From IMG/VR virus record IMGVR_UViG_3300030102_004963, positions 1 through 34,316 of that record: DNA of 34,316 nucleotides. One strand, given 5' to 3'. Below the pieces are notes generated by a model. It was given only the letters and a program-made list of their open reading frames with translations, did no database searches and was not told where the DNA came from. A program made the position numbers and the translations under genes. This document shows positions 252 to 22,395 of the stretch, one piece after another (positions within the stretch are counted from its first letter, which is position 1; every line of letters begins with the position of its first letter). The stretch is from a virus.

Positions 252-674
252 ATGTCGGCATTCGACGATGCGTGGATGCTGCTCAAACAGTCATTCCATC
301 CAGCAATTCACGGATTGATGAGGAGAAAGAGGATGGCAGACGCATACAATTACGAATCAGGTTTAGGTCCGGGTGAGGTAGGTCCGTCGGGGGCTCCGAT
401 TAAGTTGCCACCCAGCGACTTCGTGGAACAGGCTGCGGCAGGTGATATTTACGAGCCGAAAGGAGCAGCGGAGAGCGACCCGGATGACCCTTTCACGTTA
501 GACTCAATGGAGCGCTACGGCACAATAGTCAGGCAGAGCAATCCCGGTGCACAAGAACCAGCCAGCATGGAAGCCGTACTCGATAACATACGAAGGAGAA
601 ATCTATATGCGGAAGATGCCTTAAGGGATATGCGAAGAAGCGGCACGTTCCCCAAATTGCAAAGGGAGTCTTAA
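252..674 (+). CDS. Small FDxAWxLLK-tagged protein, function unknown
   Basis: A 140-residue protein that I do not recognise as a family. It begins MSAFDDAWMLLKQ, the amphipathic tag that recurs at the start of several other genes here. After the tag comes a basic stretch (HPAIHGLMRRKR) and then an acidic, Gly/Pro-rich, probably disordered body. It looks paralogous to the next gene: both have the tag, an HPAI-x-x-hydrophobic-x-RR element and a QAAAG[DE]I element. No membrane segment or catalytic motif is visible. The start is fixed by the tag; there is no strong ribosome site, and the AT-rich promoter lies just upstream. A virion-internal cargo protein is one hypothesis. Confidence 0.75.
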   Translation: MSAFDDAWMLLKQSFHPAIHGLMRRKRMADAYNYESGLGPGEVGPSGAPIKLPPSDFVEQAAAGDIYEPKGAAESDPDDPFTLDSMERYGTIVRQSNPGAQEPASMEAVLDNIRRRNLYAEDALRDMRRSGTFPKLQRES

Positions 675-675
675 C

Positions 676-1446
676 ATGAGTGTAGCGTTCGACGAGGCTT
701 GGGGCTTCATGAAGGCGCTGCCTGAGCAGCAGCAGTACCAAGAGATGCCCGGACTCGGCGAGGGCTTCGAGCAGATGACGCCCCAGAGGAGGATAGGCAC
801 CGTCCATCCCGCAATCATCAGCATGCTGCGGAGGTTGCAGTCCGGCAAGGGTCCGGGCCCTACGAGACCCGGAATTAGGAGCGTGGGATACGACCCGATG
901 TTCACTGACGACCGACCGATGCCTAACCTCAAGACCTTCCGTGCAGACCCTTTGCAGGACATGAAAGGGATAAACCTACCAAGCAGGAGTAAAATTAAGA
1001 GAAAATATCTCAGTGACGAGATAGTGGGTGATAGGGACATACCGAGAGCCATCCGTGAATCGAGACCATTCGGCCATCTTGTGGAGATGCCGAGCAGGAG
1101 AGCGTTTCCGGGATTCGAGACCTACGGCAATGAAACTGGCATGAGCCCTCAGTTCGTGGACCCCAGTATAGGAGAGCCATTCGTCGAAGGTTACAGCAAA
1201 ACAAACACCTCAGGTGGTAATGTGGCGGGCCGAATCGATGATAGCGCATTGTATCCAGATGTAGGCTCACCGCAAGAGGTCATAGATGAGATGGCGAGGC
1301 AGGCTCCGGAAGCCTCAGCGCAAGCGGCGGCTGGGGAGATAGACTACGGTGGCCCGACGTTGGATGAGTATGCAGCAAGCCTGACAGGACCCAACCCGAG
1401 AAATCGTTTAGCATCCAGACTAGATGAACTGACGCGCCGCAGATAG
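676..1446 (+). CDS. FDxAWxLLK-tagged protein, paralogue of the preceding gene
   Basis: A 256-residue protein of unknown function, starting one base after the previous stop with a GGGAG ribosome site at 664-668. It opens with the tag MSVAFDEAWGFMK, followed by a Gln-rich linker and a VHPAIISMLRR segment that matches the basic segment of the upstream neighbour. The rest is polar and Pro/Gly-rich with little predicted hydrophobic core. A QAAAGEIDYGG element near residue 220 again echoes the upstream gene. Duplication followed by divergence is the simplest explanation. No enzyme motif is visible. Confidence 0.75.
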   Translation: MSVAFDEAWGFMKALPEQQQYQEMPGLGEGFEQMTPQRRIGTVHPAIISMLRRLQSGKGPGPTRPGIRSVGYDPMFTDDRPMPNLKTFRADPLQDMKGINLPSRSKIKRKYLSDEIVGDRDIPRAIRESRPFGHLVEMPSRRAFPGFETYGNETGMSPQFVDPSIGEPFVEGYSKTNTSGGNVAGRIDDSALYPDVGSPQEVIDEMARQAPEASAQAAAGEIDYGGPTLDEYAASLTGPNPRNRLASRLDELTRRR

Positions 1447-1678
1447 CGAAACTTAGAAGTCTTGACCCCTATACCCACCACCGTGGCTGCTGCTTGGGAA
1501 TCGCTACCCGTTCTTTCTACTATCAGTGTTGTTATCACCCTAGCCTCACCGGGGAAACCCGCATTCAGCCCCTCGAGGCAAGCAGCAGTCACACCGGAGA
1601 TGGTGTGTTGAACACGACGTTCCCGATTGGCTTCGCCATGCTGTACAACCAAGGTGAGATGTATCGAGGGGAGTAGGG
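1447..1678. other. Gap of 232 bases without a convincing gene
   Basis: Short open frames exist on both strands, but none has a ribosome site, a coupled start or protein-like composition that I trust. A minus-strand frame across 1344-1709 reads smoothly in the middle, but it continues antisense into the well-supported gene at 676. The only signal I would keep is the GGGGAG ribosome site at about 1667-1672 for the downstream enzyme. Confidence 0.4.
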
Positions 1679-2527
1679 ATGGACTTCGAGATTTACGAGG
1701 TCGGTCCACGAGATGGTCTCCAGAGCCATGACACGATAACGCCCACAGCGGTCAAGGTCGAACTCATCGAGGAGATTGCCATGTCCGGCATTCGCAACAT
1801 CGAGGTCGGGTCGCTAGTGCACCCCGAGAAGGTGCCTAACATGGCTGACAGCGATATCCTGTTCAAACAACTACCGCATTTGCAGTATGACTGCGAATTG
1901 GCGATGCTTGTTCCCAACAAGCAGGGGGTGGAGAGGGCCAAAAAAATCGGGGTCGAGAACTTCAACGTGTTCTTCTCCCCGAGCGAGAGTTTCAACATGA
2001 ACAACCACGGCAGGATGAGCAGTCAGGTCTTCACCGAGTACTGCGCGGCCCTCGATGGCATTGACAAGAGCCGCATCAGGGTCTACCTGAGTTGCATGTT
2101 CGGATGCCCGTATGTCGGAAGTGTGCAGCAAGAGCAGATGGAGCGGTCGCTGCGATGGGCCGATTCGCTCGGGGGCACCATCGTCCTCTCCGACACGATA
2201 GGCTCTGCTGACCCGACGCTGATTCGCAGCGTCATCAACCTGACTAGGGGCATGGGCATAACCGCTGACCTAGCATTGCACCTGCACCATGGGCCGAGGA
2301 GGAACCGCATGTTCGACAACCTCAGCACGGCGTTCGACATGGGCGTGCGGCAGTTCGACAGCAGCATCGGCGGAATGGGCGGATGTCCATTCGTACCGGG
2401 AAGTGGTGGTAATCTGTCCACTGAGGACCTCGTGAAGTGGGCGAATGACGAGAGACTCGATTGTGGGGTCAAGCCTGAGGACCTAGGCACTGTGACCAAG
2501 TACGTGGAAAGAAGAATCGGGCATTAG
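1679..2527 (+). CDS. HMG-CoA lyase-like enzyme (HMGL/DRE-TIM superfamily)
   Basis: A 282-residue TIM-barrel enzyme, slightly shorter than cellular 3-hydroxy-3-methylglutaryl-CoA lyases (about 300). The hallmarks are intact. The N-terminal EVGPRDGLQ motif carries the catalytic Arg11 and Asp12. The metal-binding HxH is H201-L-H203. The signature GGMGGCPF carries the catalytic Cys236, followed by the Asn245 in GNLSTED. In the family the enzyme cleaves HMG-CoA to acetyl-CoA and acetoacetate, in leucine and ketone metabolism. One oddity is that the residue after HxH is His rather than the usual Asp. A GGGGAG ribosome site precedes the ATG. It sits among viral genes, so it is a candidate auxiliary metabolic gene. 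A related lyase of the superfamily is possible; substrate is not proven. Confidence 0.88.
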   Translation: MDFEIYEVGPRDGLQSHDTITPTAVKVELIEEIAMSGIRNIEVGSLVHPEKVPNMADSDILFKQLPHLQYDCELAMLVPNKQGVERAKKIGVENFNVFFSPSESFNMNNHGRMSSQVFTEYCAALDGIDKSRIRVYLSCMFGCPYVGSVQQEQMERSLRWADSLGGTIVLSDTIGSADPTLIRSVINLTRGMGITADLALHLHHGPRRNRMFDNLSTAFDMGVRQFDSSIGGMGGCPFVPGSGGNLSTEDLVKWANDERLDCGVKPEDLGTVTKYVERRIGH

Positions 2528-2652
2528 AGTGACCCGATTAGCGTCGCTATGCCCCAGACCGCAACTAGCCCCATCAGCATGACCTTGAGAACTGCTTCTA
2601 CCAGTGACCTGATGACTATTTGGCCTACTTCCTCGGCGCCGCCCCTTATCAT
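2524..2652 (-). CDS. Tiny membrane protein (42 residues)
   Basis: A minus-strand frame encoding a 42-residue protein that starts MIRGGAEEVGQIVI. It is hydrophobic from about residue 12 to the end, consistent with one membrane-spanning helix with a short charged N-terminus. Its ATG overlaps the stop of the upstream minus-strand gene (ATGA), the coupling used throughout this genome, which is the main reason to call it. Its stop overlaps the stop of the HMG-CoA-lyase-like gene convergently by four bases. Function is unknown; a holin-like or anchor role cannot be told from sequence. Confidence 0.6.
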   Translation of the reverse strand: MIRGGAEEVGQIVIRSLVEAVLKVMLMGLVAVWGIATLIGSL

Positions 2653-2960
2653 GAGCCCATCGTAGTCGAACCAGTACTTGCCTTTTGCCGTCCTTGCTCC
2701 ATGAGTTCGTTGGATTTCTGGCGTCTCTCCATCTCCTTCTGCTGCTGTCTCTCCTTGAGAGCGCCCATGGCCTCATCCATGCCCTCCTTGGAGGCGACCT
2801 TCTCGCTCACCTTTTTGGCTCCTTCCGTAGCCATGTCCTTCAGTCCCTCTTTCGTGGCCATCTCGCCGACCTTCTTCGCGCCTTGCGAGAGAGCGCCCTT
2901 GACGCCTTGTGATGCCATGGCTCTTCCAGCGGTAGCCAGCAGTGGTGCCAAGAATGGCAT
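2649..2960 (-). CDS. Ala/Lys/Glu-rich helical protein, minus strand
   Basis: A 103-residue protein starting MPFLAPLLATAGRAMASQG. A short hydrophobic N-terminus is followed by imperfect repeats of the type GAKKVGEMATKEGLKDMA / GAKKVSEKVASKEGMDEA, then a highly charged Gln/Glu/Arg helix. I chose this ATG because the repeats begin right after it; the frame stays open upstream to 3212 but with poor composition. The repeats resemble late-embryogenesis-abundant or apolipoprotein-like amphipathic helices, so membrane or particle-surface association is possible. With the downstream tiny membrane protein it forms the only minus-strand operon here. Function is unknown. Confidence 0.65.
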   Translation of the reverse strand: MPFLAPLLATAGRAMASQGVKGALSQGAKKVGEMATKEGLKDMATEGAKKVSEKVASKEGMDEAMGALKERQQQKEMERRQKSNELMEQGRQKASTGSTTMGS

Positions 2961-3103
2961 TTTGAGTATGTGTGGGGTCTGGGGTTGCTGATAGGGATGC
3001 TGACTGGAAGAGTTGGAAGAAGAGAGACCAGTCTCCCCAGAAGCCACCACGACCCGGCGAGGTAGAATAAAGGTAATCAACATGACGTTGTCTGGCCTTG
3101 GAC
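2961..3103. promoter_or_regulatory. Divergent intergenic region
   Basis: These 143 bases separate the minus-strand pair from the plus-strand genes, so they should hold two outward promoters. On the plus strand a TATA-like GTAGAATAAAGG lies at 3063-3074, about 30-40 bases before the ATG at 3104. I see no clear box for the minus-strand gene. Confidence 0.35.
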
Positions 3104-3313: not shown

Positions 3314-3317
3314 CAGG

Positions 3318-3845
3318 ATGGCAGATGGGGATGTCAAGGACTACGCTGGTGAGAAGAAGAAGCCATCCATAGCACTGGTCATCTCCGTCGGCCCCAAGAT
3401 GCCGAAGAAGCCCGAAGACACATCGAAGCCTGATGGAGCGATGAAGAAGGCTTGGGGATTTATGAAAGCGACCTTGCCGATAAGACCCAAGACGATGGAA
3501 TATGAAACTGACCCTAAAAGAACACGTAGATACGAACAGACGGGCGGTATCGCTCGAAGGGGTAGGGAGAGGATGATGGACGATTTCGGCGCTCGTGAGT
3601 TCGATGCCAGCCCATACGGACCACTCGCTATGGGAGAGGAGGACATCATGGACCACGACCCCGGTGAGGGGATGTACGATGCTCTTGCTGATGAGCCAGA
3701 AGAGGAGGATGAGGAGTTCTTGGGCTGGGAGGACTTGATGGCTCTACTACCACCCATAGGAACCCCACTTTCGGATGCAGAGGAGCAGATACGAAGAGAG
3801 GCTTATCGGATGTATCAGGAGGAGAAAGGAGGACCACAGCCATGA
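3318..3845 (+). CDS. Acidic-tail protein with internal AWGFMK tag
   Basis: A 175-residue protein of unknown function. A Lys-rich N-terminal stretch of about 40 residues precedes AMKKAWGFMKATL (residues 41-53), which matches the tag found at the N-termini of neighbours (AWGFMK is identical to that in the gene at 676). The middle is basic and the C-terminal half is strongly acidic (EPEEEDEEF), ending in a helix. GAGGTGA ends just before the start. An ATG within the frame right at the tag (3441) would give a version with the tag at its start, so the true start deserves checking. Confidence 0.65.
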   Translation: MADGDVKDYAGEKKKPSIALVISVGPKMPKKPEDTSKPDGAMKKAWGFMKATLPIRPKTMEYETDPKRTRRYEQTGGIARRGRERMMDDFGAREFDASPYGPLAMGEEDIMDHDPGEGMYDALADEPEEEDEEFLGWEDLMALLPPIGTPLSDAEEQIRREAYRMYQEEKGGPQP

Positions 3846-4141
3846 GTTTCGATGACGCATGGGAGATACTCAAGATTCGCAGTGCCTCGCCACCGCGTAG
3901 GCCCAATCCAATGAAGAGGAGGCCGATGGCACCGAAGCCCGAGCCCGAACCAGAACCCGAGCCAGTGGAAGAGGAGCCAGACCCAGCAATGGCTAGGAGA
4001 GGGAAGCAAGTCACCGTAGACGCGGTGAACGCGATGAGGAGGAAGCGAGGGCTCCCCATGACTTCGGTGGAGGAGATGGAGGGCACCTTGGATGACATGG
4101 ACTACTCTGAGTTCCTCAAGCCACCGGAGGAGAGGCAATGA
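3842..4141 (+). CDS. FDxAWxLLK-tagged small protein with Pro-Glu repeat
   Basis: A 99-residue protein. Its ATG overlaps the previous stop (ATGA). It opens with MSFDDAWEILK, the recurrent tag, followed by a basic Pro-rich stretch and then an EPEPEPEP run at about residues 33-40. The second half is helical and basic, then acidic. There is no recognisable family. The tag plus disordered linker plus small helical region is the same architecture as its neighbours. Function is unknown. Confidence 0.75.
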   Translation: MSFDDAWEILKIRSASPPRRPNPMKRRPMAPKPEPEPEPEPVEEEPDPAMARRGKQVTVDAVNAMRRKRGLPMTSVEEMEGTLDDMDYSEFLKPPEERQ

Positions 4142-4539
4142 GCGGCAACTGGATTCAGAAGAGCCTAGCAGAGGACGAGTCATGGGCCGAGTTCGACGTT
4201 TGTGACTGCTGCACGCCAATGCAACAGGCATCGATGTCACTGGTCGAGGACTACTTCGAGAAGGCCAAGAAGAAGTCCAAGCCGTTCCACGGGTACAACA
4301 AGAACAGGCACAGCCGAAAGGGTGGTCTCAGTGCCAAGGGCAGAGCGCACTTCAAGAGGAAAGAGGGTGCCAACCTCAAGCCCCCAGTGACTACCAAGCC
4401 TTCCAAACTCAAGCCCGGAAGCAAGAGGGCAAAGAGGCGCAAGTCATTCTGCGCTCGCATGAGCGGCAGCAAGGGACCAACTAGCAAAGATGGAAAGTTG
4501 ACGCCAAAAGGTGCAGCATTGAAGAGGTGGAATTGTTGA
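4138..4539 (+). CDS. Small basic phage-type protein (DUF6321-like)
   Basis: A 133-residue, very basic protein whose start overlaps the previous stop (ATGA). The N-terminus has a CDCC cluster. The second half contains KGGLSAKGRAHFKRKEG, NLKPPV, KRRKSFCARMSG and KGPTSKDGKLTPKGAAL elements ending in RWNC. From memory this resembles the DUF6321 family seen in many phages and large viruses; I cannot confirm by search. The family has no established function. The position in a run of small cationic genes suggests nucleic-acid contact or virion packaging, which is inference. Confidence 0.75.
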   Translation: MSGNWIQKSLAEDESWAEFDVCDCCTPMQQASMSLVEDYFEKAKKKSKPFHGYNKNRHSRKGGLSAKGRAHFKRKEGANLKPPVTTKPSKLKPGSKRAKRRKSFCARMSGSKGPTSKDGKLTPKGAALKRWNC

Positions 4540-4691
4540 AGAAAGACAAGTGCTGCTGCGGCGCTACTAAGAATAACCCATGCAAATGCATGGAGATAGG
4601 ACGAGAGTGTTCTGTTTCAGCACCTAAATGCCCATGTTACAAACTGTTAGATGCGCAACAGAAAGTCAAGAAAATGGTGGGCGTGTTATGA
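4536..4691 (+). CDS. Tiny Cys-rich protein (51 residues)
   Basis: A short gene with a TTG start that overlaps the previous stop (TTGA), preceded by GAGGTGG at 4524-4530 at a good distance. The product begins MKKDKCCCGATKNNPCKCME and has nine cysteines in 51 residues, including CCC, CKC and CPC groups. This would suit a small zinc-binding or metallothionein-like fold. Its stop overlaps the next ATG (ATGA). Coupling at both ends plus a ribosome site makes it credible despite its size. Function is unknown. Confidence 0.65.
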   Translation: MKKDKCCCGATKNNPCKCMEIGRECSVSAPKCPCYKLLDAQQKVKKMVGVL

Positions 4692-4885
4692 TAGGTTCTT
4701 GTGATTGTGGCCACTGCGTCGGCATGAATGTGGCGTGGGACTCTCTCGAGAAGAAACTCTGCCCCGAAGGGAAAGCCGCTGCAAAGAGGAAATTCAAGGT
4801 CTATCCGTCTGCCTATGCTAACGGATGGGCTGTCCAGTATTGCAGGGGCAAGTTCCGAGGAAAGGGGAAAGGGAAGAAGAAATGA
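4688..4885 (+). CDS. Small basic protein with YPSAYAN motif
   Basis: A 65-residue protein. I chose the ATG at 4688, which overlaps the previous stop, over upstream in-frame starts that would run through the Cys-rich gene. It has an N-terminal CDCGHC cluster, a CPEGKAAAKRKFKVYPSAYAN core, a YCRGK element and a Lys-rich tail. Small proteins with a K-x-YPSAYAN core are common in aquatic viruses and of unknown function (recalled, not searched). The cationic tail suggests nucleic-acid binding. Confidence 0.7.
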   Translation: MIGSCDCGHCVGMNVAWDSLEKKLCPEGKAAAKRKFKVYPSAYANGWAVQYCRGKFRGKGKGKKK

Positions 4886-5442
4886 GTTCAAACTCCCGTT
4901 GCACCTGCCACAATACACTGGTAGTGAAGGACTTGAATCGATGGTTCAAGGAGAAGTGGGTGGACGTATCGAGGAAGGACAAGGATGGCAAGCACCCACC
5001 GTGTGGCAGAAGCAAGGCAAAGAAGTCGTCAAAGGGGTATCCAAAGTGCAGACCATCTGTCAAAGTCTCAGACAAGACACCCAAGACATCTGGAAGCATG
5101 TCGACTGGTCAGAAGAGAGCAGCGACTAAGAGGAAGAGGTCTAAGAAGCAAGGCGTCGGTGGGAAACCCACTATCGTCAAGGGCGTAGCAGTCCTGAAAG
5201 CAAGAGAACTCTCGCCCGAGGCCAAGCGCCACAAGAAGGAGTATGACACCAAGTACGAGTCGAGCCCTGACAGGGTAAAATACCGCGAGGACCTGAATAG
5301 GGAACGAAGGAGGCGAGGCATCTATGGTTCCCACGACCACAAGGATGTCAGTCACACGCAAGGTGGGAGGCTCACTCTTGAGAATGAGCACTCAAACAGG
5401 GCTCGGCACTTCAAGAACCGAGGAACCTTGCGGGTGGTCTGA
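4882..5442 (+). CDS. Cationic two-part protein (DUF5872-like N-terminus)
   Basis: A 186-residue protein starting at an ATG that overlaps the previous stop. The N-terminal half has a CTCH element, then WVDVSRKDKDGKHPPCGR and YPKCRPSVKVS, resembling from memory the DUF5872 family of viral proteins. The C-terminal half holds ELSPEAKRHKKEYDTKYESS, RVKYREDLNRERRRRGIYG and DVSHTQGG elements, a separate module also seen fused in phage proteins. It is strongly basic throughout. Together with 4138-4885 it forms a cassette of small Lys/Arg-rich proteins, probably virion or DNA associated. Biochemical role is unknown. Confidence 0.72.
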   Translation: MSSNSRCTCHNTLVVKDLNRWFKEKWVDVSRKDKDGKHPPCGRSKAKKSSKGYPKCRPSVKVSDKTPKTSGSMSTGQKRAATKRKRSKKQGVGGKPTIVKGVAVLKARELSPEAKRHKKEYDTKYESSPDRVKYREDLNRERRRRGIYGSHDHKDVSHTQGGRLTLENEHSNRARHFKNRGTLRVV

Positions 5443-5466
5443 TGAGGCCTTTCGACCAAGCGTGGG
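5437..5466 (+). repeat. 30-base repeat covering a gene start, copy 1
   Basis: These 30 bases are identical to 6117-6146. After one mismatch, six further bases also match. The repeat spans the TGATG stop-start junction and codes for MRPFDQAW, the N-terminal tag. The two genes that carry it share nothing obvious beyond the tag. Confidence 0.9.
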
Positions 5467-6122
5467 CTTTGCTGAAAATGGCTCGCTACCAAATCGGTCC
5501 TACGAACATGCTTGACATAGCAGATATTAGTCGGGCTCATGACAGTGGTGAGTATCAGGACATGATGAATCAATTCCGCACAGAGGAGTATCCCTTTCCT
5601 ATCATGGGTAGTGCGACTTACTTTGGGGATGAGCATGTCAAGACGATGATGACTCCTACGGAATACATGAAAATCGCTTACGACACGCCGCGTGAGGACT
5701 TGATGTATGACGACAACCCAGATGATGTGTATGAATTACAAGGGTATACTCCGAATGATAACTACCTAACAGCAATGGGTGAACAGATGAAGTTAGGTAG
5801 GCCATACGGTATGCCTAATTTTGACGTTAAACAAACAGAAGACGGCCACTGGATTGTTCGTGGACAAGAGGGGCGTCATAGAATGCAGAATCTGATTGAT
5901 ATGGGTCATGGTGATGTTGAAGTTCCAGTCACTTTGTCCGCTAGGTATCCCGGTAAGAGACGCTTTTATGGTGGAAGTCAACAATTACGAGATGCACTAC
6001 ATGGAAGGGACCTCATTCAGATAGACAGTTTTGGAGACACACACCCCGATGAACTACATAGAATCCCTATCAGGGTGATGGAAGACCAAGACTTTGGAGA
6101 GGGAACGAGGAGGATTGTCTGA
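5442..6122 (+). CDS. FDxAWxLLK-tagged protein with ParB-like EGRHR segment
   Basis: A 226-residue protein starting at a TGATG junction. It opens with MRPFDQAWALLKM. The middle is polar. At about residues 139-163 it reads RGQEGRHRMQN...VEVPVTL, which resembles the G-x-HR and hydrophobic strand of ParB/sulfiredoxin-like nuclease domains. The rest of that fold is not clear, so this is only a suggestion. Base use after the tag is more AT-rich than in neighbours (AAT, GAT, TTA common), which suggests the body was acquired separately from the tag. Confidence 0.75.
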   Translation: MRPFDQAWALLKMARYQIGPTNMLDIADISRAHDSGEYQDMMNQFRTEEYPFPIMGSATYFGDEHVKTMMTPTEYMKIAYDTPREDLMYDDNPDDVYELQGYTPNDNYLTAMGEQMKLGRPYGMPNFDVKQTEDGHWIVRGQEGRHRMQNLIDMGHGDVEVPVTLSARYPGKRRFYGGSQQLRDALHGRDLIQIDSFGDTHPDELHRIPIRVMEDQDFGEGTRRIV

Positions 6123-6146
6123 TGAGGCCTTTCGACCAAGCGTGGG
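6117..6146 (+). repeat. 30-base repeat covering a gene start, copy 2
   Basis: The second copy of the repeat at 5437-5466, offset by 680 bases. It again spans a TGATG junction and encodes the start of a tag, here MRPFDQAWDLLK. Confidence 0.9.
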
Positions 6147-6799
6147 ATTTGCTCAAGTTCCAGAACCTCCAGTCTGAACTCGCAATGGGGTACGATGACC
6201 CTAGGTATGACAAGGCAATCGGCCTGACGTATGCCCCGACAGCCGATTCACCGGCGAAGCCGAGCATGAACTTGGCTCAGAGGAACCCTGCGAGGACTGC
6301 CCCTAGGGATGCCTACTTCAACACTGAAGATGTCAACGAGTTGGCTCGCAGAATATCGCTGATAGACGCACATGAGGCCATGGGCCACGGGGAGGACCCG
6401 ATGCTGGGTCATCTGCTCAACATGCGAGAGCACATCAGACACGCAGTGCCTGATGACCATCCCAACCCTGACCTCATTGCCCAAAGGAACAGCATGCTAA
6501 GTCAGTTGTCAGCAGCGATAGAGGCCCCCGGCATCACCATGGAGGAACTCGTCAATGAGTCTTTGAATCCCAGAGCGAGTAGCAGGAGCCTATCAGAGAG
6601 GGTTCGTGACAACTTCGCAGAAAGAGCAGGGGAACCGGGAGCGATGTTCGGGGGCGGTCAGGAGACCATGAGCCCAGAGAATGCGAGAAGGGACATGAGC
6701 GTAGCAGAACTCGCTAGGGCGCAAATAGGTACAGATACGGACTTCCCCCTACCTGCCTACAGCACGTTTGGTAAAATGCTTGATTCCGATTATTCTTGA
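6122..6799 (+). CDS. FDxAWxLLK-tagged protein, function unknown
   Basis: A 225-residue protein and the last gene of the accessory block. The N-terminus MRPFDQAWDLLKF is nearly identical to the preceding gene in both protein and DNA, while the bodies differ. It is mostly helical and polar, with an IDAHEAMGHGEDPMLGHLLNMREHI segment at about residues 80-105 that is His-rich but lacks a complete metalloprotease motif. Pro/Gly linkers suggest disorder at both ends. It is followed by an AT-rich gap that probably contains the next promoter. Confidence 0.72.
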   Translation: MRPFDQAWDLLKFQNLQSELAMGYDDPRYDKAIGLTYAPTADSPAKPSMNLAQRNPARTAPRDAYFNTEDVNELARRISLIDAHEAMGHGEDPMLGHLLNMREHIRHAVPDDHPNPDLIAQRNSMLSQLSAAIEAPGITMEELVNESLNPRASSRSLSERVRDNFAERAGEPGAMFGGGQETMSPENARRDMSVAELARAQIGTDTDFPLPAYSTFGKMLDSDYS

Positions 6800-6893
6800 T
6801 AATCATCTATATGTATAAATAAATATAACTATATGTATAGACAATACATTAGAATTTCTAGAAAGGTGTGACCCTCTTTCTGACACAAGCCTT
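6800..6893 (+). promoter_or_regulatory. AT-rich promoter region with repeated TATA element
   Basis: The sequence CTATATGTATA occurs twice, at 6807-6817 and 6829-6839, 22 bases apart, with TATAAATAAATATAA between them. The whole 6800-6840 stretch is strikingly AT-rich against its surroundings and matches an archaeal TATA box. It probably drives the operon beginning at 6941. A small palindrome TTCTAGAA lies at about 6856-6863. The two-copy spacing, about two helical turns, could also suit a regulator binding site. Confidence 0.55.
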
Positions 6894-7785: not shown

Positions 7786-7796
7786 GGTGAGCCTCG

Positions 7797-8513: not shown

Positions 8514-8523
8514 ACCTGACCTC

Positions 8524-11402: not shown

Positions 11403-11800
11403 TTGCGAGAACGATAGACCTGATGCAGGTGACGCATCCGGGCTTCTCGCTGTTCCAACTTCCCACCTTCGACCTAGAGGAGGAGATGCCTACGTACATG
11501 GAATACGTCATTCTGGTCTGCAAGCGATTCAAGTACTATGCCAACATGAATCACGAGAGAGTCACGATGCTCTGCCTCACTGATATGGTAGAAACGCTGG
11601 ATAAAATGTCCGAATCGGATGACCCTGCTGAAATATTCCCATTGAGGGAGGAACTCAAAGAGTCAGTGAACAAGTTCAATGACCTGTGCGAGGACATGGC
11701 CAGTTGCATAGTCAATGAATCCATGGCAACGGAATTCTACATCAAGTTAGGTGAGAAGACCAAGCAGCATTGCTTCGAGTACGCAGGGGTTGAGTACTGA
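11399..11800 (+). CDS. Helical acidic protein, unknown
   Basis: A 133-residue protein; the ATG at 11399 overlaps the previous stop (ATGA). It is mostly helical and acidic, with CKRFKYYANMNHERVTMLCL and several short amphipathic helices, and no motif that I recognise. The composition is that of a well-folded soluble protein rather than a disordered one. Its stop overlaps the next ATG (TGATG), so it is co-translated with the tandem zinc protein and the following large disordered protein. Confidence 0.7.
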   Translation: MIARTIDLMQVTHPGFSLFQLPTFDLEEEMPTYMEYVILVCKRFKYYANMNHERVTMLCLTDMVETLDKMSESDDPAEIFPLREELKESVNKFNDLCEDMASCIVNESMATEFYIKLGEKTKQHCFEYAGVEY

Positions 11801-13176
11801 TGCCACAGGGAACAGGCGGCATGGGCACTGGCTCTGACACTCGCATGTACAATCCACGGAGCGAGTCCTCCCACATGTACGTCAACAATCACGAGGAGGA
11901 CCGCCATGGTGCCGAGGATGGCAAGGAGAAGGATGCGAAGATGGACCGGAAGAGGGCCAAGGACAAGGCTCGCAGGGCTCTCATGAGCAAGGTCAAGCAC
12001 ATCAAGGTCAAACCCTCAGACTTGGAGGGGCTTAAGGACGAGGGGGAAGAGGAAGAGGATGACTCTGACAAGAGGGACCAAGAGCGTGAGATATCCGCTC
12101 AGACCGGCCCACCCGGTAACCTAGGCTTCCTGACTAGCCTAGCGAACCAAGCCAGAGGTCCCGGCGCTGCTGGAGGGCAGCAGTTCGCAATGGGAGAGCC
12201 AATGGACATAGCCTTCCAACTGCTCAAGGAGGAAGCGCAGGGTTTCGTGCCAGACAAGAACCCCGAACCGAAGAAGGACAAGAGGGATAAGGCCAAGGAG
12301 AAGAAGGCCAAGAAGGAGCGCAGCAAAAAATTCCGTCCCTCAACAGGCCAATTCAAGATGCCACCGGGTGGGGTCAACCCAGCATCAGCGACATCGAGGA
12401 GGGCCAAAGCCAGAAGCAGGGGAATCAAGAGCGACAAGAAGACAGGGCTGGGACGCTCGCACCTAGCGGTAGAGATGTCACATCGAGGGGTGCAGACCAA
12501 GCAACCCACATCCAAGAATCCGCAGAAGTACAGACAGTACATGGGTCAGCAGGAAGGCAGGAAGAGACTGGGTGGCGTTAGGACAGTGGCATCCACACCA
12601 GCGAGGTTCGGTGCACGCTCATACACAGCAGGTGCGACGGGCGGTGGTAGGCTTCAAGGCGTAGCGAGACCAAGGAGACCTGCCCTCAAGCCGCACAGAA
12701 TTCCACCGATAATGCCACCTGCCATGCCACCGAGACCCTCGATGCCAACACCACCGCCCATGCCGGGTGCCCCACCCGCCCCAATGCCAACAGCAGGTGT
12801 CGGTGTGCAGCAGATGGCAGCACCACCTATGATGAGACCCGGAAGGCTGCCATCGTCATCGGTCCAAGGAGTCATGACAGGACCCATCGGGGAAGGGAGC
12901 GAGATACAGAAGAAACTCACTCGATACGACATCATAGAACTCAGGCAACTCTTGGCTGATACCAAGAGAGCCATAAGGCAGAAGGAAGGAAAGAAGAAGG
13001 GGATGGGGACCAAGGACACAGGCGGCGCAGGCTCGAACCTACCGAAGCACCCAGAGAACGGTCCCAAGCAGACTACTCGACCAGAGGGTGCGACCGAGGA
13101 CGCGAACAATGAGCCTCGCACGTTCGGCATGGACCCCATTGGAGTTTACACCAGTAGGGGAGGAAGAACTCCGTGA
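11800..13176 (+). CDS. Large disordered Lys/Pro-rich protein with internal AFQLLK element
   Basis: A 458-residue protein of mostly low complexity. It has a charged N-terminus, an acidic run (EEEEDDSD) near residue 85, then MDIAFQLLKEEAQGF at 135-149, a relaxed form of the recurrent tag. After that come Lys-rich (KDKRDKAKEKKAKKERSKK), Arg-rich and Pro/Met-rich (PPIMPPAMPPRPSM) stretches. A short helical segment around RYDIIELRQLLADTKRAIRQ lies near the C-terminus. No enzymatic domain is visible. Such proteins are often virion-internal or DNA-condensing; this is inference. Confidence 0.72.
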   Translation: MPQGTGGMGTGSDTRMYNPRSESSHMYVNNHEEDRHGAEDGKEKDAKMDRKRAKDKARRALMSKVKHIKVKPSDLEGLKDEGEEEEDDSDKRDQEREISAQTGPPGNLGFLTSLANQARGPGAAGGQQFAMGEPMDIAFQLLKEEAQGFVPDKNPEPKKDKRDKAKEKKAKKERSKKFRPSTGQFKMPPGGVNPASATSRRAKARSRGIKSDKKTGLGRSHLAVEMSHRGVQTKQPTSKNPQKYRQYMGQQEGRKRLGGVRTVASTPARFGARSYTAGATGGGRLQGVARPRRPALKPHRIPPIMPPAMPPRPSMPTPPPMPGAPPAPMPTAGVGVQQMAAPPMMRPGRLPSSSVQGVMTGPIGEGSEIQKKLTRYDIIELRQLLADTKRAIRQKEGKKKGMGTKDTGGAGSNLPKHPENGPKQTTRPEGATEDANNEPRTFGMDPIGVYTSRGGRTP

Positions 13177-16646: not shown

Positions 16647-16668
16647 TACTATTTCCGGCAAGGAGAAC

Positions 16669-18129
16669 ATGGAGGAGTTCATCCTCAACATGGACAAGGA
16701 GATGGCGAAAAAATCGTTCGAGTACTTCTTCACCGAGATGCTCGAGTTCATGTACAACGAGCATCACAAGTCTTGGCACGACGGTCTGGCCAATCACCAG
16801 TACTACTGCGTCAAGGCGTCTCGTGACCACGGCAAGTCCGTGTTCTTCATGTCCTACGCATTGTGGATAGCGGCGTTCAAGCCCAACACCCACATCATGA
16901 TTTTCTCCCACTCGCTAGAGCAGACCCTCGAGCACATGCGGTTCATCAGGAACCTCGTGGAGGGCACGCCCATTCTGAGGCACCTCAAGGACGACGGTGA
17001 CAGATGGGCAAAGTCGTACTTCAACTTCACGAACGGCTCCCGCTTGATGGCCAAGTCGGTCGGTGGTGCCACCCGTGGTTTCCACCCGGACATCGTCGTG
17101 TGCGACGATATCCTCTGGGGGACCACATCCACCGAGTTGGCCAAGACCGCAGACTGGTTCTACGGTGTGCTTCTACCAGTGCTGCACCACAGCAGCAAAC
17201 TCATGATGGTCGGCACGCCATTCTCCTACAACGACCTGTACGCGGAGTTGGAGCAGAAGGAGACCTTCAGGGTCGAGACCTACCCTGCGATAAACGAGAA
17301 GGGCGAGGCCCTCTGGCCCGGCAGGTGGGACTTGGAGGCCCTCAACCAGAGGAGGCTGTCCATGCCTGCAATCCAGTTCAGCCGCGAGTACCTATGCGAG
17401 CCCATCCACGACGTGGCGAGCATGTTCCCAATGGACATGCTGGAGAAGGCCAAGGACACGAATCTAGTTCTCATGGACAGGGCCGAGACATTCTACAACG
17501 AGGAGGGGGAGGCAGATGGTGTCTTCGGTCACCATTTCATCGGGCATGACCCGGCCATCGCGTCTGACAAGAACGCAGACTTCACGGCCATGACCGTCAT
17601 GAGGATAAAGCCCGACGAGGAGAAGAAGGAGATTATCCACGTCGTCCATGAGAGGGGGATGTCCTCGATGGCCCAGAAGCGGATGATGGTCATGCTGAAC
17701 AATAAGTTCAAGCCTGACCTAATCGAACTCGAGGGCAACAACTTCCAGAGGATGCTGGAGCAGGAGATGAGGGAACTCGCATCTGACATGCCCATCAGGG
17801 TCTTCATGACCACACGCACTAAGAAGGAGTCGTTGTTCATGTCACTGTTACTGGCATTCGAGCAGGACAACATCAGGCTCCCATACGGTGACGAGAGAAG
17901 CAGGGAGTTCACGAACGAACTGATGCAGCAGTTGAATCGCTTCGGCATGCAGAAGAACGGCAAGTTGGAGAGCGTAGGCGTGCATGACGACTTGGCGATG
18001 AGCCTCGCTCTCGCCAACTGGGCCTCCAAGGAGTTCAGGGGCTCGGTGATGCTCCTCGATGATTATATGCCGGGTTTCGACGAGTGGTTCAGAGGAGAGC
18101 GTAAAACACCTTCATGGATGGTGCCTTGA
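16669..18129 (+). CDS. terL: Terminase large subunit
   Basis: A 486-residue ATP-driven packaging motor and nuclease. The ATPase domain has a terminase-style Walker A, SRDHGKS at residues 51-57 (K56), and Walker B IVVCDDI at 142-148 (D146, D147). The RNase-H-like nuclease has IGHDP with D294, an IELEG strand with E355, and VHDDLAMSLALA with D440/D441. All three acidic positions are thus present. AAGGAG at about 16660-16665 sets the ATG. Length is normal for the family. It pairs with the portal two genes downstream and possibly with the tandem zinc protein at 10683 as small subunit. Confidence 0.95.
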   Translation: MEEFILNMDKEMAKKSFEYFFTEMLEFMYNEHHKSWHDGLANHQYYCVKASRDHGKSVFFMSYALWIAAFKPNTHIMIFSHSLEQTLEHMRFIRNLVEGTPILRHLKDDGDRWAKSYFNFTNGSRLMAKSVGGATRGFHPDIVVCDDILWGTTSTELAKTADWFYGVLLPVLHHSSKLMMVGTPFSYNDLYAELEQKETFRVETYPAINEKGEALWPGRWDLEALNQRRLSMPAIQFSREYLCEPIHDVASMFPMDMLEKAKDTNLVLMDRAETFYNEEGEADGVFGHHFIGHDPAIASDKNADFTAMTVMRIKPDEEKKEIIHVVHERGMSSMAQKRMMVMLNNKFKPDLIELEGNNFQRMLEQEMRELASDMPIRVFMTTRTKKESLFMSLLLAFEQDNIRLPYGDERSREFTNELMQQLNRFGMQKNGKLESVGVHDDLAMSLALANWASKEFRGSVMLLDDYMPGFDEWFRGERKTPSWMVP

Positions 18130-18198
18130 ATGGAAGAGAGATACAACAATACAACACATGTTACGAAAGCAAATGAGAACAGGACGTCTTGGTCATGA
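18130..18198 (+). CDS. Possible 22-residue microprotein between terminase and LAGLIDADG gene
   Basis: An ATG follows the terminase stop with no gap, and the frame (MEERYNNTTHVTKANENRTS...) ends at a TGA that overlaps the next gene's ATG (ATGA). It would keep ribosomes coupled across an otherwise empty 65-base gap. It is more AT-rich than its neighbours. A chance arrangement cannot be excluded. Confidence 0.3.
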   Translation: MEERYNNTTHVTKANENRTSWS

Positions 18199-19331
18199 GC
18201 GCCTTCTCTAAGAGCGGAGAGGGCTGGTTCGAGGAGAACCTCGGAGTCAGTGCCACCGACATCGTATCCAGACTGAGAAAGGCCAGAAGACACAACAAGG
18301 ACGAGAAGCACGAAATCGATGCTCTCATCCAAGACGTCAGGATGCTGAAGTCGATGGAGGTCGAGATGACCCTCAAGAGCATAGACTGGGCCAACGACTA
18401 CATCAATGAGATTCGCAACTTCGACCTGTCAGACAAGAGCATGACGTCCCTGAGGAAGTTCTCGGACAGCCGCAAGGTGAGCCTAGTCAAGGCATGCATC
18501 ATGTGGAGGGATGCCGATAACGCCCTAGAACTCCTGAAAGAGCACGAGGAAGTCTGGGGAGACGATGAGAGGAAGGCATGGGTCGACGCCATGAACATGA
18601 AGAAGGATGCGAGGAAGATGTGGAAGAGCACCCTTTCACAGATGGACAGACTAAGTGACAAGGAACAAGAGACAATCACTAAGTGCGCGGCTCTGCTGAA
18701 GATGAACGGTCCAATGAGCGCTAGAGCGATGTTCGAGTCCGACACCATAGAGAAGATGCCGGGACTCACAGCCAACAAACTATCCAAACTCCTGTCACTG
18801 TACGGTGAGGAGGTGGACATAGTCAACGGTGCCCAGAGGGGCACGTTCGTCAAGATGGAGAATGACGGGCTCGTCCTCAAGGACCCGTATGCCTATGCCG
18901 CTGGGTTCCTAGATGCTGACGGTTACATATCGATAACCGGCAGGGGAGAGCCCAGAGCGGGGTTCATCGCTACCGGCACAAGAGGCAGGGTTCATTGCGA
19001 GCAGTTGCAGAAGACCCTAGGGTGTGGCGTGCTCCAACTCGACCAGAAGGTGTACAAGGACACCCAGAGAAGCCAGCACAGATTGCAGTTCTACTCCAAG
19101 GACGACATCGGCAAGTTGCTCAACCACCTGTTGCCTCATCTCAAGATGAAGTCCACACAGGCAAAAGCCGTCCTCGCATTCATCGACGAAAGCGACCCTT
19201 TGAGGAAGGAGGAACTCAAGAGGCTGGTCAAGTACTCCAATTGGAGCGACGATAAGGCAAAGAGTCAGACCCTGCTCGCAGAGTGGGGAGTGAGCGCTGA
19301 CGACGTTGCGAAATGGCAGGAGGAATTGTGA
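18195..19331 (+). CDS. Helical protein with C-terminal LAGLIDADG nuclease domain
   Basis: A 378-residue protein; a TTG two codons upstream is the alternative start. The first 160 residues are charged helices. A winged-helix-like stretch follows (ITKCAALLKMNGPMSARAMF, near 161-180). Then comes a LAGLIDADG motif, YAAGFLDADGYISI (core at 235-243), followed by a typical beta-rich single-motif homing endonuclease domain. A single motif implies that it works as a homodimer. It is not an intron or intein: the neighbours TerL and portal are both intact. Phages often keep an HNH nuclease beside the terminase to help packaging, so this may be a domesticated counterpart. Confidence 0.8.
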   Translation: MSAFSKSGEGWFEENLGVSATDIVSRLRKARRHNKDEKHEIDALIQDVRMLKSMEVEMTLKSIDWANDYINEIRNFDLSDKSMTSLRKFSDSRKVSLVKACIMWRDADNALELLKEHEEVWGDDERKAWVDAMNMKKDARKMWKSTLSQMDRLSDKEQETITKCAALLKMNGPMSARAMFESDTIEKMPGLTANKLSKLLSLYGEEVDIVNGAQRGTFVKMENDGLVLKDPYAYAAGFLDADGYISITGRGEPRAGFIATGTRGRVHCEQLQKTLGCGVLQLDQKVYKDTQRSQHRLQFYSKDDIGKLLNHLLPHLKMKSTQAKAVLAFIDESDPLRKEELKRLVKYSNWSDDKAKSQTLLAEWGVSADDVAKWQEEL

Positions 19332-21091
19332 TGGCTGAGGAGGACAGAGGACCAATAGGGCGCTTCATCGACCGAATACGAAGCCCGTTCAGGATACGCT
19401 CGACGCCGGAACCACAGATGCCCCTCTACACGACGGGCATACAGGAACCAGTGCTCGCACAGGGAATTACAATACCCGCTCTGTATGCGGTCAGCCATGA
19501 GAACCTCATACTCAGGACCGTCATCTCCAAATTACAGCAGGAGATATTCAGGAGGGGATACTACTGGGAGAAGAAGTTTCAGAAGAAGTGCGATGCTTGT
19601 GATGAGGAGTATCACTACGACTTGGACCAGTGTGACTTCTGCGGTGGTCCGGTCAGAGGGCCCGACCCCACCCAGACCACATATGCCAAGTGGCTGCTCA
19701 AGGGGCAGAACCAGATGGAGCAGAACTTCCTCCAAGTGCTGTTCGAGATAGAGAAGGACCTGAATGTCGTCGATGACGCCTTCCTCATCATCGTCAAGGA
19801 CTACTTCATCGACCCTGACACTGGCGAGATTCAGCACTACAGGGTCAAGGAGGTCATCAGAGGCGACCCCATATTCATGCGAATCATCTCTGACAAGCGT
19901 GGGGTTCGTGGTGGTAGGTACAAGGTCTGTCCCATACACAGGGACCAAATCGCCTACCCCGGACAGGAGGAGAAGTGCACCGTCTGCGGAAACCACATGC
20001 AGGACGCTCACTATGCCAACATGGCAGGCAGCGGAAAGACCCAGTACTATCTGGAGGGAGAGGTCATCCACATCAGCAAGTACGCCCCATCCAAACTCTA
20101 CGGTAGAAGCCCAGTCAACACCATGTGGCGTCAGGCGATGACCCTGACGGCGATGGACAACTACATGTACACTGCCTACCAGAAGAGGAGGACACCAAAG
20201 GGCATCATATCGGTAACCACTGACAATCTCGAATCGATGAAGTCATTCTGGAAGTCCGTTGACGAAAAGATGGAGAGGGACCCGCACTACGTTCCCAAGG
20301 TCGGCATAGAGAGCCAGACAGGCAGGGGCGGTGTGAACTGGGTCAAGTTCATGGATACTCTGGAGGAGATGCAGTACACCGCTGTCAGGGACGAGATAAG
20401 GAACAGGATAGCAGCGTTCTACGGCGTCAGCAGCATATTCATGGTCGACAGCGGAAAGAGCGGAGGGCTCGGCAATGAGGGGATGCAGATTCTAGTCACC
20501 AACAGGGCAGTTGAGTTCGGCCAGAAGGTCTACACCGATGTTCTCTTCCCGAGGTTGCTCGAGCAGATGGATGTCACGGATTGGAAGATAACCCTATACC
20601 CGAACGAGGAGGAGGACGAGATAACCAGACTCAGGAGGGATGAGATGGAGGTCAACCTCGCACAGAGGATGCAGATGCTCGGCTACAAGCCCGAACTCCT
20701 AGAGGAGGGAGACAGGGACATCAGGTTCTCCTACAGGAAACTACCACCTGAGGAAGCGATGCAGCAGGGCATGATGCCACCGGGCATGCCTCCCGGTATG
20801 CCACCGGGCATGCCTCCCGGTATGCCACCGGGTCAAGGAATCCCAATGGGAGCCGGTGTGATGAGTCAACAACCACCACCGGGGATGCTGAGGCAGATGA
20901 TGCCGCCATCCCAACCCGGAGGGGAGGGAGTTGGCATAAGAGCACCCAGAGGACCAGCCGCACCACAACGCCGAACGACAGGCGGTTCCGGCTCTCCGAT
21001 ATCATCGGTTCAACAGAGAGGAGCAATGCCCTCCCAGCAGGAGCAAAATAGCCGTGCATTAATGAATGCGAGAAGGTTTCGGGGTGCATAA
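19331..21091 (+). CDS. Portal protein with two zinc-ribbon insertions
   Basis: A 586-residue protein starting at the ATG that overlaps the previous stop, behind AGGAGG. The body reads as a tailed-virus portal: conserved HISKYAPSKLYGRSPV, an internal helical stem, DEIRNRIAAFYGVSSIFMVDSGKSGGLGNEG, and a C-terminal DEITRLRRDEMEVNLAQRM helix. Unusually, it has two probable zinc sites, C87-x2-C90...C101-x2-C104 and C200-x2-H203...C216-x2-C219. The last 120 residues are disordered, with a PPGM repeat. It forms the dodecameric DNA gate at the capsid vertex. The portal assignment rests on these motifs and position between terminase and capsid genes. Confidence 0.88.
   Translation: MAEEDRGPIGRFIDRIRSPFRIRSTPEPQMPLYTTGIQEPVLAQGITIPALYAVSHENLILRTVISKLQQEIFRRGYYWEKKFQKKCDACDEEYHYDLDQCDFCGGPVRGPDPTQTTYAKWLLKGQNQMEQNFLQVLFEIEKDLNVVDDAFLIIVKDYFIDPDTGEIQHYRVKEVIRGDPIFMRIISDKRGVRGGRYKVCPIHRDQIAYPGQEEKCTVCGNHMQDAHYANMAGSGKTQYYLEGEVIHISKYAPSKLYGRSPVNTMWRQAMTLTAMDNYMYTAYQKRRTPKGIISVTTDNLESMKSFWKSVDEKMERDPHYVPKVGIESQTGRGGVNWVKFMDTLEEMQYTAVRDEIRNRIAAFYGVSSIFMVDSGKSGGLGNEGMQILVTNRAVEFGQKVYTDVLFPRLLEQMDVTDWKITLYPNEEEDEITRLRRDEMEVNLAQRMQMLGYKPELLEEGDRDIRFSYRKLPPEEAMQQGMMPPGMPPGMPPGMPPGMPPGQGIPMGAGVMSQQPPPGMLRQMMPPSQPGGEGVGIRAPRGPAAPQRRTTGGSGSPISSVQQRGAMPSQQEQNSRALMNARRFRGA
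20774..20832 (+). repeat. 24-base tandem repeat encoding PPGM
   Basis: Two perfect 24-base units (starting ATGCCACCGGGCATGCCT) at 20774-20797 and 20798-20821 and a partial third to 20832. They encode a Met-Pro-Pro-Gly repeat in the portal tail. Such repeats vary by slippage. Confidence 0.85.
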
Positions 21092-21129
21092 TTAAAAGTC
21101 GTGACGCTTACGAGCAGGGCGAGATTACC
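21088..21129 (+). promoter_or_regulatory. Possible promoter after the portal
   Basis: CATAATTAAAAG at about 21086-21098 is a short AT-rich box 30-40 bases before the ATG at 21130. This fits a TATA element for a short-leader transcript into the portal-proximal genes. Evidence is weak. Confidence 0.3.
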
Positions 21130-21495
21130 ATGGACTTACTCAAGATGCACCCTATGGCGAGAAAGATGAACGTACATAATGAGGCCTTCGCAAAGGCCCT
21201 AGAGGCCAACGAGCCAGAGGCTGCTAGGATGCACCTATCCGAGATAAAGAAACTCAGTTCCTACTTGGAAGATGACCTAGTCTTCGAGATTAAGAAGGCA
21301 GAGGCAGCAGCGTCCGACCCCCTCACAGTATATGCCAATGGAGTTCCAACAGCATCATTCAACGAGACTGGCAACACCTTCGACCCAGCGAACAGGGACA
21401 TCCAACTGCCCGGAACCATATTCTCATCTAGCACCAATCCCAGAATGCAGAAGGCTAGGAGCACGTTCGGGAGAAGAGTCGGACCCGGTGAGTGA
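21130..21495 (+). CDS. Small portal-proximal protein, unknown
   Basis: A 121-residue protein. The N-terminal half is helical and charged (MDLLKMHPMARKMN, ALEANEPEAARMHLSEIKKLSSYLEDDL); the C-terminal half is polar and probably extended, ending RRVGPGE. The initial MDLLKM is only a faint echo of the recurrent tag. There is no recognisable family. Position just downstream of the portal suggests a head-assembly accessory role. The stop lies six bases before the next ATG. Confidence 0.65.
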   Translation: MDLLKMHPMARKMNVHNEAFAKALEANEPEAARMHLSEIKKLSSYLEDDLVFEIKKAEAAASDPLTVYANGVPTASFNETGNTFDPANRDIQLPGTIFSSSTNPRMQKARSTFGRRVGPGE

Positions 21496-21500
21496 GACTA

Positions 21501-21842
21501 ATGGGAGAGGACGGCGCCGAGAGACTGATGAGCACTCTCATCTCTAAGATGGAGAGCATAGACCAAGACGTGCAGATACTCAAGGCTGAGAACGCGGCTC
21601 TCAGGAAGATGGTAGACTCACCCGCTGCCCTGCTTAGGAAGGCGGGATACGTGTCAGTTCGCACTCCTCTCGCTGACGATGTCAGCACCGACCCGCTCAG
21701 AGGAGACTTCGGTGTCGATGCCCAGACCGTCGTGAAGTCAGACAACAGTGACTCTTTCAGCAACGAGGACATTCACAACATGTCATGGAGTGAGATACAC
21801 GAAATGGCAGAACAGACAAGAGAAGTCAAGGAGATGTACTAA
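21501..21842 (+). CDS. Coiled-coil protein sharing a C-terminal motif with the scaffold
   Basis: A 113-residue protein; the ATG at 21501 is preceded by GGTGAGTGAG, with a GTG three codons earlier as the alternative. Residues 8-40 form a leucine-rich coiled coil (LISKMESIDQDVQILKAENA). The C-terminus reads MSWSEIHEMAEQTR, which closely matches MSWSEVHNLATRAF at the very end of the protease-scaffold protein at 27817. A coiled coil plus shared terminal motif suggests a scaffold or assembly factor docking on the same partner. Confidence 0.7.
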   Translation: MGEDGAERLMSTLISKMESIDQDVQILKAENAALRKMVDSPAALLRKAGYVSVRTPLADDVSTDPLRGDFGVDAQTVVKSDNSDSFSNEDIHNMSWSEIHEMAEQTREVKEMY

Positions 21843-21843
21843 G

Positions 21844-22395
21844 ATGAGACCAATACCAAGCCCAGCCTCGTATGAGGCATTTCAACTGCTGAAGAAAGCC
21901 AATGCACTGCTCGAGAGGGCCGATGCTCTGGAGAAAGGCGACAAGTGCCCCGAATGTGGTGGTAAGATATCGAAGACTGGTTGCATGATGAAGGACGGCA
22001 CTATGAAAACAGGCTGTGCAGGCATGAAGAAGTACGGTACCATGCAGAAGGGCGACATGGACGAAAAAGACAAGTACTGCATGAAGAACTTCGGCAAGAA
22101 ATACTCAGAGTGTACAGCAGAGCAGAAGAAGCAATGCGACAAGAACGTCGATAAGGTAGAGAAGGGAGAACATCACAAGGCTCAGTCCTTCGACTTCAAC
22201 CCCGGACACGTGCAGTTCATGTCAGAGACAGGCGGTCAGACGTTCAACGCCTACTACACCACCAACCAGTCCCTGCTTGACTCGGAGGACGTTGCAAACA
22301 AGGGTGCGAGCCAGTCCAGCGTCAACATAGAAGCCCTGAACAGGAACCAGAATCCACATGACAACCCTGCCCCCGGTCACCAGACAGAGGGATGA
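21844..22395 (+). CDS. Cys-rich protein with AFQLLK tag
   Basis: A 183-residue protein whose ATG follows the previous stop by one base. It starts with a tag-like helix, SYEAFQLLKKANALLERADALEKG (residues 9-32). Next comes CPECGGKI and a Lys/Cys/Met-rich stretch with more cysteines (TGCMM, TGCAG, KYCMK, SECTAEQKKQC), a probable zinc or disulfide-stabilised domain. The last 80 residues are polar and disordered. The AFQLLK element is identical to that inside the protein at 11800. Function is unknown. Confidence 0.7.
   Translation: MRPIPSPASYEAFQLLKKANALLERADALEKGDKCPECGGKISKTGCMMKDGTMKTGCAGMKKYGTMQKGDMDEKDKYCMKNFGKKYSECTAEQKKQCDKNVDKVEKGEHHKAQSFDFNPGHVQFMSETGGQTFNAYYTTNQSLLDSEDVANKGASQSSVNIEALNRNQNPHDNPAPGHQTEG

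Follow-up and report, generated by a model that had tools for sequence, protein, structure and literature searches.

We analyzed a 34,316-bp linear virus record from IMG/VR (IMGVR_UViG_3300030102_004963; this whole stretch of DNA is hereafter the window) in which a short peptide of the form FDxAWxLLK recurs on otherwise dissimilar proteins. This peptide tag is a real, widespread, modular peptide system of the Magrovirales. These are the tailed viruses of Poseidoniales, archaea that abound in the ocean; they are related to the Druskaviridae and known from metagenomes alone (PMC12999244). The system is apparently undescribed; a search of the open-access literature gave no description, and the word is used provisionally. 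We consider it probable, by analogy, that the tag is a transferable peptide for docking, by which proteins are brought into the procapsid, functioning like the capsid-targeting sequence (CTS) of phage T4 while being unrelated to it in sequence.

The statistics of the motif were obtained from the window and 16 fetched relatives (17 genomes), which yielded 1,374 crude open reading frames (ORFs), called greedily and without a gene finder. The strict motif [FML]xx[AS]Wxhh[KR] matched 61 times, whereas 200 per-protein shuffles averaged 1.0 match and never gave more than 3; the reversed motif matched once in the same ORFs. The motif began 2 to 4 residues after Met in 44 copies versus 0.04 in shuffles. 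Matches without the W, nearly all of a second, internal form described below, numbered 25 versus 0.6 expected. All of these counts hinge on the regular expressions chosen. At the DNA level, an exact pattern for Met-x-x-F-D-x-A-W-x-L-L-K was found in at least 118 stretches of IMG/VR, many with 2 to 8 copies per locus, and the loci obtained this way are biased toward FD and ATG starts. A degenerate DNA pattern with a fixed TTT GAY was too specific and gave no match in the window record. In GTDB (257 Gb), the same exact pattern gave 21 stretches with one copy each, against an estimated 15 or so expected by chance, and one of these stretches belonged to a magrovirus contig from a single Poseidoniales cell. 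When tag-bearing records were tested for their capsid, 26 of 30 encoded the same major capsid protein (MCP; 63 to 84% identical), and the other four were records of 28 to 44 kb. In the haloarchaeal virus HVTV-1 the tag was absent, with a single chance match in the portal.

The bodies behind the tag are unrelated to one another, as had been proposed from the window alone. Across IMG/VR, 374 distinct N-terminally tagged proteins fell into 198 body clusters, 144 of them singletons, and the tag was the sole shared part. From 353 N-terminal copies we arrived at the consensus M-[T/N/S]-[A/P]-F(94%)-[D72/E14/N7]-x-A(94%)-W-x-[L/I/V]-[L/V/M]-K(98%), where the W was demanded by the scan and is not independent and the other fixed positions were favored by the scan pattern, although several residues were allowed at each. 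Upstream of these copies only a Shine-Dalgarno signal was conserved, and nothing was fixed downstream. An alignment of 148 representatives gave M1, F4, A7, W8, and K12 as near-invariant columns, plus one stray proline. The second form, [GS]EPM[D/N/E]xA[F/W/M]xLLK, is repeated inside larger proteins, and the most copies in one protein were five, in a protein of 960 amino acids (aa), with the N-terminal copy included. Copies were also found at the extreme C terminus, as an SVAFSLAWNLLKSE end in G011 and G012 and after a basic GKPTIVK domain in G020.

The same body can occur with the tag, without it, or tagged at the opposite end. The DUF6321 body lacks the tag in the window and has it in G015 (MNAFEESWEFLK), L181, L220, and L233, with a variant, MTAFETAWDVIEK, in G022; for the YPSAYANG protein, the window's tag is degenerate and those of G022 and G023 are better. 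In an AlphaFold 2 (AF2) model of an ADP-ribosyltransferase (ART)-like cargo, the tag was a low-confidence helix (residues 5 to 11, predicted local distance difference test [pLDDT] of <50) ahead of a well-predicted body. Because bodies occur both tagged and untagged, and because AF2 keeps the tag outside the body, we regard the tag as modular and as lying outside the fold that it precedes. This modularity across 198 clusters strongly supports the earlier suggestion of a transferable, body-independent peptide.

The tag also varied with the capsid. Between two capsid clades with unrelated bodies, position 7 was L in 93% of copies in one and V in 62% in the other, and the residue before F was P or A in one clade and mostly A in the other; this comparison ignores phylogeny within the clades. 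A concerted shift of this kind would be expected if all tags in a clade met one shared partner.

Within the window's clade, tagged genes lie on the structural strand, mainly 22 to 33 kb upstream of the MCP gene (10 to 20 kb upstream of the terminase). In the block upstream of the terminase, 55 of 146 same-strand ORFs in the 17 genomes were tagged versus 9 of 1,141 elsewhere, and since the block was picked after inspection, a P value would not be a fair test of this difference. Where genomes had no tags in the upstream block, their contigs stopped short of the region. Our first location rule, 22 to 33 kb upstream of the MCP, was too narrow: it holds for the window's clade, whereas other records carry tags immediately behind the portal, in the interval from terminase to portal, or 2 to 3 kb past the MCP, again on the structural strand. 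The single-cell virus had two strict copies only, both adjoining the portal gene, and no reversed-motif matches. The tags thus lie on the same strand as the head and packaging module and inside or beside it, they are borne by head-module and effector-like bodies, and they are absent from the host, all of which strongly supports a tie between the tag and that module.

Eight copies had been listed for the window, five of them at the very N terminus. A six-frame scan left seven standing and confirmed the five N-terminal ones, all within complete ORFs. The positions first given for the motif (252, 676, and so on) are where the genes begin, and the F sits 6 to 12 bases downstream. The N-terminal copies open plus-strand genes for proteins of 140 aa (252..674; MSA-FDDAWMLLK at 252-287), 256 aa (676..1446; MSVA-FDEAWGFMK at 676-714), 99 aa (3842..4141; MS-FDDAWEILK at 3842-3874), 226 aa (5442..6122; MRP-FDQAWALLK at 5442-5477), and 225 aa (6122..6799; MRP-FDQAWDLLK at 6122-6157). 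Homologues of the first, in G009 and G018, read MTAFETAWNILK and MTAFEAAWDILK, respectively, and the second shares its tag plus "ALPEQ" with G019 (MTAFEESWKFLKALPEQT) and G004. No homologue was detected for the body of the protein at 6122..6799. A sixth copy, MKKAWGFMK at 3441-3467, occupies residues 42 to 50 of a 175-aa protein (3318..3845, plus strand); it is real and probably internal, since the upstream context TSKPDxxAMKKAWxFLK is conserved in L248 and L267, with an ATG start at 3441 as the less probable alternative. The seventh, GEP-MDIAFQLLK at 12193-12228, lies in a basic low-complexity protein of 458 aa (11800..13176, plus strand). Its core at 12202-12228 is the distinct internal form GEPMDIAFQLLK, present in homologues from G011, G012, G020, G021, and G022 and not in others, and the G021 homologue has four internal-form copies. 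The eighth, YEAFQLLKK at 21871-21897 (plus strand), is not a tag: the homologues begin with variable, coiled-coil-like sequence lacking the A-W.

A further, degenerate tag, MNVAWDSLEKK, probably occurs at 4724-4756 in a basic DUF5872-like protein (4628..4885, plus strand; weak Pfam DUF5872 match), whose homologues in G022 and G023 read MTAFDNAWDYLEKK and MDAAWSLLQKK at that place. The untagged DUF6321 protein of the window lies just before it (4138..4539, plus strand; Pfam DUF6321 E = 2.5e-17). Three consecutive small basic proteins at 4138-5442, DUF6321 and two DUF5872-like, start Cys rich (CDCC, CDCGHC, and CTC). A CDCxxC stretch is kept behind the tag in some tagged DUF6321 homologues, and the Cys-rich start is possibly another shared short element.

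A scan of the tagged bodies against Pfam, PHROGs, and NCBIfam returned Nudix, DUF6321, DUF5872, zinc ribbons, helix-turn-helix domains, and a ParB C-terminal family. The largest cluster is ART-like in fold. Its best Foldseek matches were archaeal KptA/Tpt1 (E of about 1e-4; template modeling score, 0.44), and its profile reached Tpt1 from profile position 16, just past the tag (E = 0.0024). A GNAT-like cluster was recognized by a single-sequence Pfam match below the curated cutoff and a conserved RRRGYA stretch; a profile search with it found no solved structure. For the protein at 5442, the body is tentatively ParB/sulfiredoxin-like, as suggested by weak but concordant fold matches of a low-confidence AF2 model (58.7) to ParB-N, KorB, sulfiredoxin, and Osa and by a GxEGRHRM motif; the sequence profile found no related solved structure. 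An HEWGH zincin motif and kinase-like bodies were spotted among the tagged proteins by eye alone. DUF6321 is encoded between the scaffold and MCP genes in four unrelated marine phages, the T7-like pelagi- and cyanophages HTVC131P, HTVC031P, P-SCSP2, and S-TIP37, and just before the terminase in S-TIP28. By analogy, these kinds of cargo (ART-like, GNAT-like, Nudix, ParB-like, and zinc ribbon) resemble injected phage proteins.

The closest known system is that of T4, whose internal proteins (IPs) carry a 10-residue N-terminal CTS with residues 4 and 7 as reported specificity determinants; the targeting peptide doubles as a cleaved propeptide, and T4 heads carry Alt, an ADP-ribosyltransferase (PMC9026906). 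Like the CTS of IPI to IPIII, the magrovirus tag is an N-terminal peptide of about 10 residues on proteins with divergent mature parts, and it places aromatic residues one turn apart (F4 and W8 in the tag; Y/F4 and F7 in the T4 N termini that we fetched). The cargo includes an ART-like fold, and the virus encodes a prohead protease, which the first-pass annotation had recognized (27817..29220; phrog_23555 match). The tag differs in having no sequence match to the IPI, IPII, or IPIII propeptides and no gp21-type cleavage site, in occurring also internally, repeated, and at the C terminus, in the roughly 200 clusters of its cargo, and in belonging to archaeal viruses. The T4-like features are thus an N-terminal peptide on unrelated bodies and a prohead protease with a putative scaffold role. 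Because two defining features, similarity to the IP propeptides and [LI]xE at the peptide end, fail, we do not count the tag as a member of the T4 CTS family.

Two other systems invite comparison. Encapsulin cargo-loading peptides are short, suffice for an HK97-fold shell to take up unrelated cargo, and are usually C-terminal and cellular. The tag is like them in combining a short peptide, unrelated cargo, and an HK97-fold shell; this likeness is one of description, and we claim no homology. Polyvalent proteins unite at least two disparate domains in one polypeptide, with ART, GNAT, kinase, and ParB-like domains among them, are encoded with late genes, and are predicted to be packaged and injected (PMC5512222). 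Tagged proteins share ART-, GNAT-, and ParB-like bodies with them, and the multitag proteins of up to 960 aa look multidomain. In contrast, most tagged proteins are small, and no mention of a universal short tag was found in the passages of PMC5512222 that were consulted.

Our model is as follows. The pattern of a helix-capping residue, F, A-W, two aliphatics, and K suggests an amphipathic docking helix; the tag is probably a short linear motif for docking that, over about 10 residues, forms a capped amphipathic helix. F4, A7/W8, and L10-L11 (tag numbering) would together form the face that docks into one groove. That copies also sit internally and at the C terminus speaks for such docking and against a signal that is strictly N-terminal and cleaved. 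The virus-only distribution suggests a viral partner, most plausibly in the procapsid. Magroviruses would append the tag to many small, fast-exchanged late-morphogenesis proteins, usually at the N terminus and sometimes between domains or at the C terminus. It would bind one assembly component, most likely the scaffold/protease region, the portal, or the inner capsid surface; the C-terminal scaffold-like region of the protease protein is a candidate, with a scaffold role that we infer. The membrane, which had also been named as a docking site, has no particular support. Tagged cargo would then enter the procapsid before DNA packaging and reach the next Poseidoniales cell together with the genome. 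More tentatively, and as a possibility that we place a little below probable, one docking code across this whole order of archaeal viruses would load a fast-changing arsenal of ART-like, GNAT-like, ParB-like, Nudix, zinc, and basic DNA-associated proteins; the multicopy internal form would make polyprotein-like cargo into multisite clients, and the tags would coevolve with a clade-specific receptor.

Several observations weigh against recruitment into the procapsid. Following the tag, [LI]xE was insufficiently enriched (present in 16 to 17% of tagged proteins in the 12-residue windows that adjoin the tag and in about 8 to 11% further downstream). To our knowledge, T4 capsid-targeting sequences do not occur as internal, repeated copies. 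A same-strand place in a late-type module is context and no proof of packaging, and some tagged small zinc-ribbon or uncharacterized proteins could act in the producing cell. Tag-to-tag recombination could also produce the concerted clade shifts, and in their leucine codons the tags differ from LLK peptides at large. The T4-like capsid-targeting explanation of the first-pass annotation stands as the best one for a modular tag tied to the head module, but without the T4 prohead-protease cleavage signature after the tag.

A different partner is the strongest rival: the tag may dock something in the infected cell, either a host factor or a focus of replication or assembly, and so concentrate viral proteins late in infection. 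This would fit the constraint at the protein level, helix docking, and the many bodies that are DNA or RNA associated or zinc binding. We consider it unlikely, given that tags are nearly confined to the structural module and strand (the 9 of 1,141 ORFs outside the main block), that head-module bodies such as DUF6321 are tagged, and that an evident auxiliary metabolic gene within the block (HMGL-like, 1679-2527) is not. Still less probable is that the prohead protease recognizes or cuts the motif, with internal copies splitting polyprotein domains and N-terminal copies removed at maturation. Such a role would account for GEPMDxAFQLLK copies spaced along long proteins, up to five counting the N-terminal one, in a virus that encodes a head maturation protease, and the T4 targeting peptide is itself a cleaved propeptide (PMC9026906). 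Most copies, however, start at residues 2 to 4, so that cutting ahead of the motif would free nothing; conservation stops at the terminal K, and [LI]xE is not characteristic. Cleavage right after K12 would be compatible with procapsid docking as well.

The conserved object might instead be DNA, a recombination cassette for gene exchange with the peptide as a by-product. Leucine codons in the tag are indeed biased relative to other LLK peptides (TTG, 60% versus 27%; CTC, 58% versus 34%), and body turnover is very fast, as the 144 singletons among 198 clusters attest. We nevertheless judge a cassette very improbable: the F, A, and K codons are synonymously mixed while the residues are 94 to 98% fixed, conservation ends at the Shine-Dalgarno sequence upstream and at the tag downstream, and internal copies vary as peptides (W/F/M) yet keep the pattern. 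Avoidance of GCC codons in the tag was dropped as a DNA-level signal, since a genome-wide lack of CCWGG accounts for the gap. As for an amphipathic peptide that recurs by chance or through composition, the copy at 21871 does look chance-like, and the explanation is refuted for the rest by the 61 matches against 1.0 (maximum of 3 in 200 shuffles), the single reversed match, and the 25 non-W matches against 0.6.

The lack of CCWGG is striking in itself. There were no sites in 1.36 Mb of the 17 magrovirus genomes (about 1,500 expected), none in the window (106 expected from shuffles), and none in the 106-kb single-cell virus contig (L294). GATC was absent from 16 of the 17 genomes, with 68 copies in the single-cell contig, and AGCT stood at 8% of expectation. 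This site avoidance suggests very strong restriction pressure.

The window fits a genome fragment of the Magrovirales, an assignment made because its MCP is related to that of the Druskaviridae and a Poseidoniales single-cell genome includes a relative of this MCP on a 106-kb contig. The MCP (29232..30371, plus strand; phrog_24667 E = 3e-58), which defines the virus group, has 496 confirmed IMG/VR relatives on contigs of up to 115 kb, and its nearest named relatives are those of the haloarchaeal Druskaviridae HVTV-1, HCTV-1, and HCTV-5 (~33% identity). The order is recognized by a module of MCP, terminase, portal, and protease related to that of haloarchaeal Druskaviridae, by genomes of about 90 to 110 kb, and by a Poseidoniales host. 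Also on the plus strand are the large terminase subunit, which anchors the structural module (16669..18129; phrog_38 E = 2.6e-67), the portal protein (19313..21091; phrog_18178 E = 6e-66), and the head maturation protease with its long C-terminal scaffold-like extension (27817..29220; phrog_23555 E = 4.5e-13).

Some neighboring features deserve mention. The untagged HMGL-like gene (HMG-CoA lyase family; PF00682 E = 3.6e-20) inside the block of tagged genes is probably an auxiliary metabolic gene. Between terminase and portal, 18189-19331 encodes an endonuclease-type domain (phrog_5046 HNH endonuclease, E = 3.8e-9) with an "AAGFLDADG" stretch. A near-identical C-terminal element, MSW[SDE][ED][IV]Hx[LM]A, ends both the protease/scaffold protein (27817-29220) and a small post-portal protein (21492-21842), and it is on both proteins in most of the 17 genomes; it is possibly a second shared peptide, a capsid- or portal-binding motif. 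In HVTV-1, gp115 and gp116 (L295, 28623-33018), a zeta-toxin-annotated protein and its neighbor, have repeated short elements of their own (YVDSPxxAPEGVQVQQG and VSDPTEQAPNRWT), and these occupy the corresponding place in the head module of this sister family.

Magroviruses are known from metagenomes alone, and the majority of their genes lack a functional assignment. For annotating such metagenomes, the tag offers a simple rule, M-x-[AP]-F-[DE]-x-A-W-x-h-h-K. Should the tag be a mark of virion cargo, a large number of proteins that enter the host at infection could be named from sequence by itself, some of them with enzyme-like folds that perhaps act on host or defense molecules. The tag would then be an archaeal counterpart, unrelated in sequence, of T4 capsid targeting, and it would provide HK97-fold shells with a compact peptide for loading cargo.

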